Part shown: positions 15,451 to 27,393 of the stretch, piece after piece
How the letters are laid out: every line of letters starts with the position of its first letter
Position numbering within the stretch: the first letter of the stretch is position 1
Source of the DNA: Natronococcus sp. AD-5
GTDB lineage: Archaea; Halobacteriota; Halobacteria; Halobacteriales; Natrialbaceae
Direction of reading: 5' to 3'
Assembly (NCBI RefSeq): GCF_030734285.1
Contig: NZ_CP132294.1
Location: 744,001-808,000 of the forward strand
Length of the DNA: 64,000 nt
The notes under the pieces: model-generated
What the model saw: the letters and a program-made list of their open reading frames with translations, nothing else
The model's database searches: none
Told to the model about the DNA's origin: nothing
Translations under genes and position numbers: made by a program

Positions 15451-15534
15451 GGTGGGGTGGCAGAGCGGCCTAACGCGCCTGCCTTGAGAGCAGGTGGCTG
15501 TCAAGCCTCATGGGTTCAAATCCCATCCCCACCG
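15451..15534 (+). tRNA. tRNA-Ser (anticodon TGA)
   Basis: Acceptor GGTGGGG pairs with CCCCACC and the discriminator is G. The anticodon loop CTTGAGA closes on a CCTGC/GCAGG stem with anticodon TGA, and a long class-II variable arm (TGGCTGTCAAGCCTCA region) is typical of serine. The T arm is ATGGG-TTCAAAT-CCCAT. There is no intron and CCA is not encoded. The 3' end is duplicated downstream. Confidence 0.95.
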
Positions 15535-15536
15535 TT
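15513..15536 (+). repeat. 24-bp direct repeat, copy 1 (tRNA-Ser 3' end)
   Basis: The 24 bases from the T loop through two bases past the tRNA are repeated perfectly at 15642-15665, 129 bp downstream. The arrangement resembles an attachment-site duplication. Confidence 0.9.
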
Positions 15537-15665
15537 TTCTCACGAGCAGTACGCGACGAGCATCGCGAGTGAGAAAACGTGGATGGTGTGATTTGAATCA
15601 GACCGAGGTTCTGCGAGCGAAGCGAGCAGGTTCTCGGGCGTGGTTCAAATCCCATCCCCACCGTT
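15533..15665 (+). repeat. tRNA-3'-end palindromic element A
   Basis: Two hairpins follow the tRNA. The first is CGTTTTCTCAC (15533-15543) with GTGAGAAAACG (15569-15579), a perfect 11-bp stem. The second has an outer arm GGATGG-tgt-GATTTGAA (15581-15597) that is an exact inverted copy, apart from a 3-nt bulge, of TTCAAATCCCATCC (15644-15657); this is the tRNA T-loop/acceptor sequence. Inside it lies CCGAGGTTCTGC/GCAGGTTCTCGG (15603-15614, 15626-15637). The element ends with the second copy of the 24-bp tRNA repeat. The same central hairpin recurs behind tRNA-Thr. Confidence 0.75.
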
Positions 15666-15673
15666 GCTGTCCT

Positions 15674-15818
15674 CGAAAGAGTGCTTTGCACTCTTTCGGT
15701 CTTCGCTCCGCTCGGTCGCGAACAGTTTCGTGAGCGACAGCGAGGTCGATGGGGTTGAATTACGGAACGAGGGAGCGAAGCGACCGGCGTTCGGACGGTT
15801 CGAATTCCATCCTCGCTA
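15674..15818 (+). repeat. tri-loop hairpin and degenerate third tRNA-end palindrome
   Basis: A perfect hairpin CGAAAGAGTGC-TTT-GCACTCTTTCG occupies 15674-15698. Further on, GCGAGG-tcg-ATGG (15740-15752) and TTGAA (755-759 of the same line) form an inverted copy of TTCGAATTCCATCCTCGC (15799-15816), a decayed version of the tRNA 3' end. This looks like an older third unit of the same element. The rest, up to the next gene at 15967, is AT-rich promoter DNA without a gene. Confidence 0.55.
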
Positions 15819-15966
15819 TCCCGATACGGCGGTTCCCGGCAGACGTCAGTCCCCTGGCTAAGTCGCAGCTGTTGCCAACCGGCACCGATCAGAACCTCGT
15901 TTTCACAAGAGAAACTGATTATCATCTTCATAATAATATCCTTCTTGTCAGTAGGTGTCGTAAGCA

Positions 15967-17280
15967 ATGTCGAATCAACGAAATACCCGGAGGCGGTTTC
16001 TCGCGCTCTCCGGAGCAGCGACGTTTGCAGGTCTCGCCGGCTGCATGGGTGAGGACCCGGAGACGTCCGAGGATCCTGGCTCGTCGGACGAAAACGGCAA
16101 CGAAAACGAGTCAACCAAGTACGGACCGCCGGAGCTCCAGGTCGAAACCGAGTACGATAGTCGCGAGGAGTTCAAACAACCCGGCGAGCAGTTCGACGAC
16201 TTCGAGGACCTCGAGCCGTGGGAGGTCGTTCAGGGCTCCGCGGAGGCGGACGAAGACGTCACCTTCGACGGCTCCCAGAGCCTCAAGCTCACCGCCGAAG
16301 ACAGCGAAAACGTCATCGTCGAGCGACGGATCGACACGACGGACATGACCGACCTCGAACTCTCGACGGCCGTGCGTACGTCTACGCCCGGAAACGTCGC
16401 CATCGACATCCGGCTCATCGACATCTACGGCGGCTACGCGCACCACCAGCTCCGATCGGTCACCTACCGCGACTCCGAGGTCGGCTGGTTCCGGACGAAC
16501 CCCGGGGTCTTCTCGGAAAGTACGACGCCGCTCGAGCGGGACGTCGTCGACAAGATCCAGCTCATCGTCTACAACACCGGCGACGCGGAGGTGTGGGTCG
16601 ACGACATGCGCATCCACGAGAAGCCCGAAAAGGGGTACGTCGTGCTCTGCTGGGACGACGGCCACGAGGACTTTTACGACCGGGCGAGTCCGCTGCACGA
16701 CGAGTACGGCGTCAACGCGGTCCAGGCCGCCGTTCGCCAGTGGACCCGGGGCCAGCGCAGCGGGGTTATGACGCCCGCACAGCTCAAGGAGCGCCAGGAG
16801 GCCGGCGACCAGATCGTCGCACACGGCACGCACACGCAGTTCGCGGATATGGACGAGGAAAGTCTCAGAGACGCCCTGCGGACGGACAAGAACTGGGCCG
16901 TCAGCAACGAGTTCGGCGGCGGACACTACATCGTCTATCCCCACAACAGCTTCGACCAGACGGCCCTCGACGTCATCTCCGAGTACTACTACGCGGGCGG
17001 GTTCAATCAGTCGGGGGACAAAAATCTCACCGGCGTTCACGGTTTCGATCCGCTCGTGCTGCCCCGAACGATCGGCCACGACCTCGACATCGCGATGCAG
17101 TGTGTCGATAACGCCGCTAAACACCGCCAGTGTACGATCCTGAACTTCCACGCCTTTGACCAGGACAACACGCTGGACGAAGACGAGTACGAACAGCTGC
17201 TCCAGCACATCAACGACACCGAGGACGTCGAGGTCATCGACTTCGACGACCTCTGGACGATGCGCCGCGAGGGACACTGA
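15967..17280 (+). CDS. Tat-exported lipoprotein, polysaccharide deacetylase-like
   Basis: A 437-residue protein with a twin-arginine lipobox signal (NTRRRFLALSGAATFAG, then LAGC at about residue 22), so it should be exported folded and lipid-anchored. An acidic linker is followed by a carbohydrate-binding-like beta region (about 85-220) and an NodB-like catalytic half starting VVLCWDDGHEDFYD near 225, with HGTHTQF near 280. The D-D and H-x-x-x-H elements suggest metal-dependent deacetylation, with the substrate unknown. It has its own AT-rich upstream region after the tRNA-linked repeats. Confidence 0.82.
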   Translation: MSNQRNTRRRFLALSGAATFAGLAGCMGEDPETSEDPGSSDENGNENESTKYGPPELQVETEYDSREEFKQPGEQFDDFEDLEPWEVVQGSAEADEDVTFDGSQSLKLTAEDSENVIVERRIDTTDMTDLELSTAVRTSTPGNVAIDIRLIDIYGGYAHHQLRSVTYRDSEVGWFRTNPGVFSESTTPLERDVVDKIQLIVYNTGDAEVWVDDMRIHEKPEKGYVVLCWDDGHEDFYDRASPLHDEYGVNAVQAAVRQWTRGQRSGVMTPAQLKERQEAGDQIVAHGTHTQFADMDEESLRDALRTDKNWAVSNEFGGGHYIVYPHNSFDQTALDVISEYYYAGGFNQSGDKNLTGVHGFDPLVLPRTIGHDLDIAMQCVDNAAKHRQCTILNFHAFDQDNTLDEDEYEQLLQHINDTEDVEVIDFDDLWTMRREGH

Positions 17281-18910: not shown

Positions 18911-20101
18911 TCAGCTCGAGCGCTTGTGAATCTCCGCGGTGCGGGTCCCGGAGTAAACCGGTTCGTCGTCCTGGTTGAACGCGATGTGCTCGAATCGAAC
19001 GGTGCCGGCCTCGTCGTGCGCGGCGTCCGCTTCGGCCTCGAGCACGCGCGTGAACGCGTAGACCGTATCTCCGGGGGTGACGAACGTGTGGAATTGCTCG
19101 TCGTCGAAGCCCACCTCGCGGCAGGTTTGCTCGTCGGATCGCGCGTGGCCGAGCGCGGTCGACCGGGTGACGTCGCCGTAGGTGACGATGTCGCCCGACG
19201 GCGAGTCGGCCATGACGTCGGCGTTGTGGTGCTGCTTGGCCGTGTTGAGCGTCGACAGCGGCAGTCCGGCGACGGTCAGGTCGTCCTGCGTGCGTCCGCG
19301 CTCGTGGCGGTAGGCGACGGCGGCGCCCCGCTCGTCGGCCCGCTCGAGCGCGTCGACGAAGTCCTCGAAGGAGCCGCCGTCGGGGGTGACGAACTCGTCG
19401 GGGAGGTCGTCGCCGTCGTTCGCGGCCGCCGACGCCGGCGAGCCGCCGTCGGAGCGGAGTCCCGACGAGGATCGCGAACCACCCTCGGAACGCGACGCGT
19501 TCCGACGTGGATCGCGCTCGCTTCGCTCGCGCTCACCATCGGTTCGCTCACCCCCGTCCGTCGCGACGGGTTCCCGCCGCGGGATCATGTTCGTCCGCTC
19601 GTAGGAGCACACCACCTCCCCCGTTTCGGCGTCCTTCCCGCGGGTTCGCCAGGTGACGATCCCGTACTCGGGGCGCGAACTCGAGGTCGCCGTGCCGACG
19701 ACTTCGCTCTCGACGCGCAGTTCGGTGCCGGCGTAGACCGGCGCGCCGGGGAATCGAACGTCGGTGCGTCCGAGGAAGTAGCCGCCCTTCTCGCTTAAGT
19801 CCTCGACGGTGATGCCGAGGGTTGCAGCAGTGAGGTAGTCGGGGTGGATCGGCGGTTCGTCGAACCCCCGTTCCTGCGCGGCGTCGGTTCGCCAGTAGGC
19901 CGGATCGTGGTTCAGGGTCTGGCTCATCCACGCCTCGTTGCCCCACCGTGAGAGCGTGAGGCCGGGGTCGTGTTCGATGAGGTCCCCCTCCTCGAAGGCC
20001 TCGAAGTAGTTCCCCTTCTCGCGGGTCTCGGCCCGCTCGAGCGCCCGTTCGAACGTCTCCGAATCGGTCCAGTCGATCGATTGCGTGTCGTCTTCAGTCA
20101 T
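18911..20101 (-). CDS. mch: mesaconyl-CoA hydratase (MaoC family) with an unusual internal insert
   Basis: A 396-residue double-hotdog MaoC enzyme hydrating mesaconyl-CoA to beta-methylmalyl-CoA. The N-terminal hotdog carries GGYFLGRTDVRFPGAPVYAG near 104-123, and the C-terminal one PLSTLNTAKQHHNADVM near 280 and YGDVTRSTALGHARSDEQ. Between them, about residues 180-235 form a charged low-complexity linker (GERERSERDPRRNASRSEGG and similar), whose DNA contains a perfect 19-bp palindrome at 19486-19504. The start overlaps the end of mal by eight bases. Confidence 0.88.
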   Translation of the reverse strand: MTEDDTQSIDWTDSETFERALERAETREKGNYFEAFEEGDLIEHDPGLTLSRWGNEAWMSQTLNHDPAYWRTDAAQERGFDEPPIHPDYLTAATLGITVEDLSEKGGYFLGRTDVRFPGAPVYAGTELRVESEVVGTATSSSRPEYGIVTWRTRGKDAETGEVVCSYERTNMIPRREPVATDGGERTDGERERSERDPRRNASRSEGGSRSSSGLRSDGGSPASAAANDGDDLPDEFVTPDGGSFEDFVDALERADERGAAVAYRHERGRTQDDLTVAGLPLSTLNTAKQHHNADVMADSPSGDIVTYGDVTRSTALGHARSDEQTCREVGFDDEQFHTFVTPGDTVYAFTRVLEAEADAAHDEAGTVRFEHIAFNQDDEPVYSGTRTAEIHKRSS

Positions 20102-27208: not shown

Positions 27209-27282
27209 GCCAGGGGAGCATGGGCGGTTCATGCACTCGACTTGTAATCGAGACTTCGTGGGTTCAAATCCCACCCCTGGCT
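27209..27282 (+). tRNA. tRNA-Thr (anticodon TGT)
   Basis: Acceptor GCCAGGG pairs with CCCTGGC and the discriminator is T. The D arm is GCATGGGCGGTTCATGC, the anticodon stem CTCGA/TCGAG encloses loop CTTGTAA with anticodon TGT, and the T arm is GTGGG-TTCAAAT-CCCAC. There is no intron and no encoded CCA. A degenerate copy of its 3' end lies about 110 bp downstream. Confidence 0.95.
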
Positions 27283-27393
27283 TGACTGGCGCGAGCAATT
27301 TTGCGAGTGACAGCCAACGGGGAATTCGAACGAGACCGAGGTTCTGCGCTTTGCGCAGGTTCTCGGGAGTTGTTCAAATCCCGCCCTGGCTTT
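27283..27393 (+). repeat. tRNA-3'-end palindromic element B
   Basis: Behind tRNA-Thr lies the same design as behind tRNA-Ser: a GCGAGCA...TTGCGAGTGA segment, an inverted arm CGGGGAATTCGAA (27318-27330), a central hairpin CCGAGGTTCTGCGC-TTT-GCGCAGGTTCTCGG (27336-27366; outer strands as in element A), then GTTCAAATCCCGCCCTGGCTT (27372-27392), an imperfect copy of the tRNA-Thr 3' end (one deletion, one change). Here the copied end matches the local tRNA, not tRNA-Ser. Confidence 0.75.

Follow-up and report, generated by a model that had tools for sequence, protein, structure and literature searches.

The 3′ end of the tRNA-Ser(UGA) gene is duplicated behind the gene, and the duplication belongs to a small gene-free unit whose architecture recurs behind many tRNAs, each time with the end of the tRNA concerned, across Halobacteria. 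These units change quickly between species, and they are real and widespread. With confidence a little short of even, they can be read as non-autonomous integrative att-site cassettes that are moved by tRNA-targeting tyrosine recombinases and probably folded as DNA hairpins. The sequence-only reading had taken the repeat at tRNA-Ser for either a tiny insertion or the mark of a lost larger element, which the recurrence of the same architecture does not bear out; a single scar left by a lost island was dismissed on the ground that units of this kind stand behind many tRNAs. Its comparison with attL/attR fared better, since the repeats resemble the attachment sites of tRNA integrases of the T-loop type and the repeated block (tRNA positions 53-73) is that of two integrase-bearing islands. 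In what follows, the window is the whole stretch of 64,000 nucleotides analysed, and G000 is its source genome.

Anatomy and occurrence of the units

The 24-bp repeat GGTTCAAATCCCATCCCCACCGTT stands at 15513-15536 and 15642-15665, identical at 24 of 24 positions, with 129 bp from start to start and 105 bp between the copies. Copy 1 is the 3′ end of the tRNA gene and no integrase gene is present in the element, as the sequence-only reading had described; the 105 bp are too short for a gene. A third copy of GGTTCAAATCCCATCCCCACCGTT, 71% identical, at 15797-15820 was absent from its list, and a copy of the T-arm in inverted orientation lies between copies 1 and 2. The repeated segment is denoted R, the 21 nt at tRNA positions 53-73, which comprise G53, the T-loop, the 3′ strands of the T-stem and acceptor, and the discriminator. 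The 3′ part of the tRNA is directly repeated in the units, and the tRNA gene is left intact. Each unit leads from a first hairpin (H1) through the inverted T-arm and a second hairpin (H2) to the direct copy of R (Table 1). When 15451-15825 was folded as single-stranded RNA, the z-score was -6.1 and 0 of 100 shuffles were as good; the hairpin at 15580-15664 folded as DNA gave a z-score of -4.5 (0 of 200 shuffles as good), and the DNA fold of 15742-15818 in unit 2 was no better than shuffles.

Table 1. Coordinates of the unit arrays behind tRNA-Ser(UGA) and tRNA-Thr(UGU) in the window
Feature	Position	Strand	Remarks
tRNA-Ser(UGA) gene	15451-15534	+	last 21 nt, 15514-15534 (positions 53-73), are R
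H1 hairpin, unit 1	15535-15579	+	opens with a T-run immediately 3′ of the tRNA
Inverted T-arm copy, unit 1	15580-15597	+	coordinates approximate; core GATTTGAA at 15590-15597
H2 hairpin, unit 1	15598-15642	+	TCAGACCGAGG... family, apex GAGCGAAGCGAGC
R2, direct copy of tRNA-Ser 53-73	15643-15663	+	21/21; copy 2 of the sequence-only reading
Unit 2 H1, TTGCTGTCGCGAACA...GTGAGCGACAGC type, and decayed inverted T-arm (about 15752-15759)	15664-15759	+	
Unit 2 H2, decayed	15760-15797	+	
Third R copy, decayed	15798-15818	+	15/21
tRNA-Thr(UGU), also unit-bearing	27209-27282	+	R 27262-27282
Unit behind tRNA-Thr	27283-27392	+	H1 27283-27321, inverted T-arm about 27322-27330, H2 27331-27371, R copy 27372-27392

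The H1 hairpin of unit 2, for which the proximal unit of G004 offers a comparison, is split by a 43-bp palindromic insert (15672-15714) between two GTC copies, a nested insertion into a hairpin that recalls SMR elements entering palindromes. An ORF of 214 codons on the minus strand (15470-16114) runs antisense to tRNA-Ser and the unit and encodes VGMGFEP twice, once per T-arm copy; ORFs of this type probably account for spurious hypothetical proteins in haloarchaea. The H2 apex motif GAGCGAAGCGAGC also occurs at 19516-19528 on the minus strand, in a low-complexity part of the ORF 18911-20101.

The H2 of the tRNA-Thr unit belongs to the same family as that of tRNA-Ser, and the order H1, inverted T-arm, H2 and own R is common to many tRNAs of G000, for which 49 tRNA matches were listed and their downstream DNA was inspected. 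In ungapped scoring with a threshold of 16/21 or better, 21 of 47 G000 tRNAs have their own R again within 300 nt downstream, compared with 1.95 expected from the Rs of foreign tRNAs; one of the 21, tRNA-Asp, is a tandem tRNA gene. The corresponding counts in G003 (21 of 32 tRNAs, 2.93 expected) and G008 (15 of 30, 2.72 expected), two genomes of one genus, cover the best 30 of 45 and the best 30 of 48 tRNA loci, respectively, plus the tRNA-Ser locus, where the tRNA was parsed, and include the tandem genes of tRNA-Asp and tRNA-Thr. The scores are bimodal, falling at 10-14 or at 16-21. The duplication at tRNA-Ser is beyond chance.

Parsing of 211 tRNA loci yielded 155 units behind 32 tRNA kinds. 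A unit has about 60-180 bp plus R and no genes, and its ends are H1 and R rather than an inverted pair of the kind that marks a MITE. Over 138 units, the direct copy matches its own tRNA at a level of 0.90-1.00 at all counted positions, and the inverted arm matches it over the T-arm only: the own and foreign values are 0.97 vs 0.80 at position 57, 0.89 vs 0.57 at position 62 and 0.58 vs 0.24 at position 64, own values at positions 63 and 65 are 0.62 and 0.43, and the acceptor is near background. The T-stem value observed was reached in 0 of 2000 trials of shuffled tRNA labels. By plain best match over 220 nt the inverted arm is weaker, with the own 13-mer strictly best in 2/47, 4/32 and 4/30 tRNAs of G000, G003 and G008, respectively. 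H2 positions 3-4 are AG in 124 of the 155 units, part of whose source loci had been preselected on the other border. A shorter variant occurs at tRNA-Pro(GGG) in G003 (L423) and G008 (L441), where the same short H2 hairpin stands between an inverted and a direct copy that extend over no more than the final 6-7 nt of the tRNA.

The hairpins are not tied to one tRNA, as can be seen from H2 families, which reach as many as 15 tRNA kinds and 30 genomes or loci; the five largest have 33, 25, 19, 16 and 11 members over 15, 13, 11, 9 and 6 tRNA kinds, and an identical H2 is found behind tRNA-Ser and tRNA-Arg. Alike H2 make up 3.0% of pairs from unrelated tRNAs and genomes, 3.7% of pairs from the same genome and 6.9% of pairs from the same tRNA. 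Among pairs that differ in both tRNA and genome, H1 is alike in 1.6% of the 317 with alike H2 vs 0.5% of the 10257 others, and likeness so rare indicates that H1 and H2 are largely separate modules. Exchange at the T-arm is seen between relatives: the tRNA-Ser units of G003 and G005 have identical H1 and unlike H2, and the tRNA-Val units of G008 and L271 have identical H2 and unlike H1. Inversion of H2 at the inverted T-arms was also considered and rejected, as no pair with a reversed H2 was seen among the parsed units.

A pattern scan of a bacterial and archaeal genome collection gave at least 80 loci, 72 of those listed being taken as haloarchaeal; a CGTG border and the T-loop TTCAAATC had been conditions of the selection. 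Among the loci listed there are 81 haloarchaeal matches. For 70 of them a tRNA stands on the same strand no more than 400 nt upstream, and 66 of these 70 agree at 18/22 or better with the end of that tRNA, the tRNAs concerned being those for Arg, Met, Val, Gly, Leu, Ser, Asp, Ile, Glu, Thr, Lys and Ala. The other 11 listed include three behind intron-bearing tRNA-Trp ends (by our own reading; ARAGORN missed them), one behind a cut tRNA-Met, two at contig edges, three palindromic units read from the opposite strand and one behind an island; one of the 81 (L231) is tied to no tRNA array, contig edge, opposite-strand reading or island. None of the eight matches in the non-haloarchaeal loci listed is near a tRNA. 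Counted within these eight is L268, on a contig binned as Thermoplasmata and possibly misbinned, with a unit-like match whose R resembles a haloarchaeal tRNA-Met end.

Of 292 Halobacteria genomes, 237 contain a stricter pattern in which 20-50 nt are enclosed by an inverted and a direct T-arm; its reversed control gave no match among those listed. Across 392 genomes of the phylum, this pattern, which would miss units having other T-loops, matches 64, all within the 81 Halobacteria, and 0 of the 311 others. A phage collection gave no match to the unit, viral contigs none to the strict pattern, and a plasmid collection one matching record (L479, NZ_CP031306, Natronorubrum bangense), which carries ribosomal protein genes and may therefore be a second chromosome or misnamed. 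An origin from phages or plasmids was rejected on these results.

Turnover between relatives and islands at the same block

An identical arrangement throughout the class would, according to the sequence-only reading, have favoured a fixed structural role. Among 30 tRNA-Ser(TGA) loci, that of G000 included, a further R copy (14/21 or better) is present in 24 and absent from six, and the loci with copies have one to three of them, differing in copy number and hairpin types. The comparison of related loci that this reading had proposed was productive in that some sites proved to have no unit, others one or several, and some sites have islands. A fixed structural feature of the class was rejected, as relatives differ in both the number and the kind of units.

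The turnover is also visible between G003 and G008, which belong to one genus. At tRNA-Glu(TTC), tRNA-Met, tRNA-Tyr and tRNA-Ser(CGA), one of the two genomes has a unit, placed between the tRNA and a shared older one, that the other lacks, each time precisely at R; the first three cases are from among those listed in the comparison of the best 30 of 45 (G003) and best 30 of 48 (G008) tRNA loci, and tRNA-Ser(CGA) from the remaining loci. Recombination between Rs, with precise loss of a unit, could also account for these differences, and for tRNA-Ser(CGA) losses from an ancestral three-unit array fit equally well. Only five of 30 G003 units reach a score of at least 0.7 at the orthologous tRNA of G008 (45-row comparison, the tandem tRNA-Asp row excluded), and tRNA-Val(GAC) of G008 carries two near-identical units in tandem.

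The arrays show an age gradient. In 42 arrays with at least two copies (14/21 or better, at least one at 16/21), the proximal copy is closer to the tRNA sequence in 25, the distal copy in two, and the copies are equal in 15. At tRNA-Asn, a leading segment specific to this tRNA, which contains two extra hairpins, follows immediately after R in several genomes and in differing orders (L445-L448, from G008, G007, G002 and G014). The locus had been considered a clean empty site, a reading withdrawn once the same leading segment was seen in G002 and G007 in a different order.

Islands are bounded by the same block. Behind tRNA-Phe of G000, a 3.9-kb island lies between the tRNA and its unit, encodes a tyrosine integrase of 337 aa (PF00589) and is bounded by the same 21-bp block as the units, starting at G53. 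At L266, a 3.1-kb island behind tRNA-Val is bounded by a degenerate block (19/21) followed by a unit, and contains fragments of a disrupted integrase that belongs to the family of the tRNA-Phe island's enzyme (48% identity over 103 aa). Since both islands are bounded by the R block, tRNA-targeting recombinases in these hosts act on the very block repeated in the units. A search of the 20 kb downstream of each of 20 mostly unit-free G000 tRNA loci (L412 was dropped, having no tRNA at its start) gave the tRNA-Phe island, a tRNA-Pro copy at +195, and R-like copies behind tRNA-Glu(CTC) (+5425, 18/21) and tRNA-Leu(CAA) (+1080, 19/21), near which none of the ORFs looked integrase-like by eye.

Explanations for the units

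The reading as att-site cassettes could be pictured as follows. A tyrosine recombinase acting in trans would recombine the T-arm of the cassette with that of the tRNA gene; the tRNA would be restored because R is identical, and its old 3′ end would be displaced downstream. H1 would provide a new T-run directly behind the tRNA, H2 with the inverted arm would probably form a folded DNA site, and older units would decay downstream of newer ones. The anatomy, the match to the individual tRNA, the presence/absence differences and the exchange of modules among relatives, the age gradient and the use of the block by integrase islands are shown above. We infer that the agent is a tyrosine recombinase; the intermediate would be single-stranded DNA, at least partly, and gains would dominate over precise losses.

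Several observations speak against the cassette reading. The enzyme is neither encoded in the unit nor linked to the units by data, and an excised form was not seen in the phage and viral-contig searches, with one plasmid record only. The inverted arm tracks the individual tRNA beyond what simple integration explains; inverted sites should permit flips, yet no H2 pair is reversed; and H1 and H2 do not travel jointly, so that the moving piece is uncertain. The presence/absence differences fit precise loss as well, and at tRNA-Asn a change in either direction would fit. Moreover, the hairpin formed by arm, H2 and arm is richer in G-T than in A-C.

A rival explanation is local templated duplication with gene conversion, which needs no dedicated mobility enzyme and which we consider unlikely overall. 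In this picture tRNA genes are spots of replication conflict, strand switching at hairpins would copy the end of the tRNA in both directions, quasi-palindrome correction would keep the arms matched, and recombination between Rs would expand, shrink and shuffle the array. The match of the inverted arm that falls away from the apex, from 0.97 at position 57 through 0.89, 0.62 and 0.58 at positions 62, 63 and 64 to 0.43 at position 65, suits this explanation, as do the near-identical tandem units of G008, and the age gradient could be conversion by the tRNA that weakens with distance. It is opposed by the same H2 families behind many tRNAs in many genomes, with the identical H2 at tRNA-Ser and tRNA-Arg, and by the placement of the units, 80 of the 81 matches listed being tied to a tRNA array, contig edge or island, which is stricter than would be expected of palindromes generally.

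Alternatively, a transposase or a Cas1-like (casposase-like) integrase could act at tRNA 3′ ends and duplicate a target site of 21 bp there. Casposons target tRNA genes and make target-site duplications. With such an enzyme, the end of any tRNA would be copied automatically and new units would enter beside the tRNA, as in CRISPR arrays, which would account for the constant agreement of R with the local tRNA, irrespective of the H1/H2 type, and for the proximal polarity. We nevertheless regard this as quite improbable, because it leaves the tRNA-matched inverted arm and the precise H1/H2 exchange at the arm unexplained, and because the boundaries of R are exactly those of the tyrosine-integrase island in the same genome.

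Whether the hairpins act as DNA or RNA can be approached through their base pairs and loops. The H1 pair beside the tandem G-A motif (n = 110) is A-T in 52, G-C in 37, G-T in nine and A-C in five cases, and this covariation shows that the hairpins are real pairs. An excess of G-T mismatches, predicted under selection on RNA, is missing both in H1 (69 G-T vs 88 A-C) and in H2 alone (56 vs 68). The arm-H2-arm hairpin has 207 G-T vs 142 A-C, an excess that may be due in part to consensus bases fixed where H2 begins and ends. Of 150 distinct H2, 89 have a C-GNA-G apex (mean of 21.4 and maximum of 35 in shuffled sequences), and GNRA loops of the RNA type show no excess (12 vs 17.1 shuffled). Together with the G-T counts in H1 and H2 alone, these features are of the DNA type and favour the cassette reading. 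GNA loops give very stable DNA hairpins. In 400 kb downstream of the mostly unit-free tRNAs, the complete apex motif did not occur. In Rfam only the tRNA reaches its gathering score; sX4 scored 32.6 bits against a cut-off of 70. A conserved RNA role, in which trailer hairpins would aid tRNA 3′ processing or termination or act as small RNAs and the distal R would shield the tRNA T-arm from the inverted copy, agrees with the strong folding, the T-run that opens many H1 at the termination position and the H1 covariation, but is hardly probable given the G-T counts in H1 and H2 alone, the many orthologous tRNAs with no or an unrelated unit (the five of 30 above) and a unit covered by no Rfam family.

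Relation to known systems

It can be proposed, tentatively and with confidence well below even, that the units form a new class of elements confined to Halobacteria as far as searched: gene-free cassettes with two exchangeable DNA hairpins that enter tRNA 3′ ends only, copy the end of the entered tRNA in both orientations and build age-ordered arrays, so that tRNA genes would receive arrays resembling those of integrons or CRISPR but lacking genes and spacers. If this is true, a large share of the tRNA genes in a whole archaeal class carry arrays of a nameless mobile element, and each such tRNA keeps an ordered record of insertions. The system would then be one in which target matching in both orientations needs explaining, and a natural test of how recombinases change targets. 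It may also explain odd haloarchaeal annotations, such as short hypothetical proteins antisense through T-arm copies. A literature survey, with subscription papers outside its scope, found no published description of these units; as far as the consulted parts of the sources go, the nearest are the SMRs of Haloquadratum (PMC3119063) and tRNA-integrated elements (PMC8371274).

Archaeal elements with tyrosine recombinases are described, in the consulted part of PMC8371274, as duplicating the 3′ part of the tRNA and restoring the gene, the T stem-loop being a known sub-site. The units resemble such tRNA-targeting integrative elements in duplicating the tRNA 3′ part with the gene intact and in sharing the 21-bp block with islands of the same genome. 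They differ in having only about 60-180 bp and no genes, in being arrayed behind many tRNA kinds and in holding an inverted T-arm between two exchangeable hairpins. SMR-A and SMR-B of Haloquadratum, according to the consulted part of PMC3119063, are non-coding sequences of about 80-110 bp with inverted repeats whose mover is unknown; they do not duplicate their target, and the sites entered by SMR-A are IS605-type elements and PATEs. As far as this description reaches, the units share with SMRs their small size, non-coding nature, haloarchaeal hosts and inverted repeats, but differ in the 21-bp direct copy and in their location at tRNA ends (70 of the 81 matches listed).

The same can be asked of casposons and CRISPR arrays, which the units recall by targeting tRNA ends with a target duplication and by leader-proximal growth, respectively; unlike casposons, they lack cas1 (casposase) and polB genes, and unlike CRISPR arrays they consist of shared hairpin families instead of unique spacers. 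In integrons, the newest cassette stands beside a fixed receiving site, and the recombination sites are imperfect hairpins. The units are comparable in forming an array with the newest member at a fixed site and in the exchange of modules, and the hairpin of arm, H2 and arm may be a candidate for such an imperfect site, whereas they carry no genes and their receiving site is a tRNA gene.
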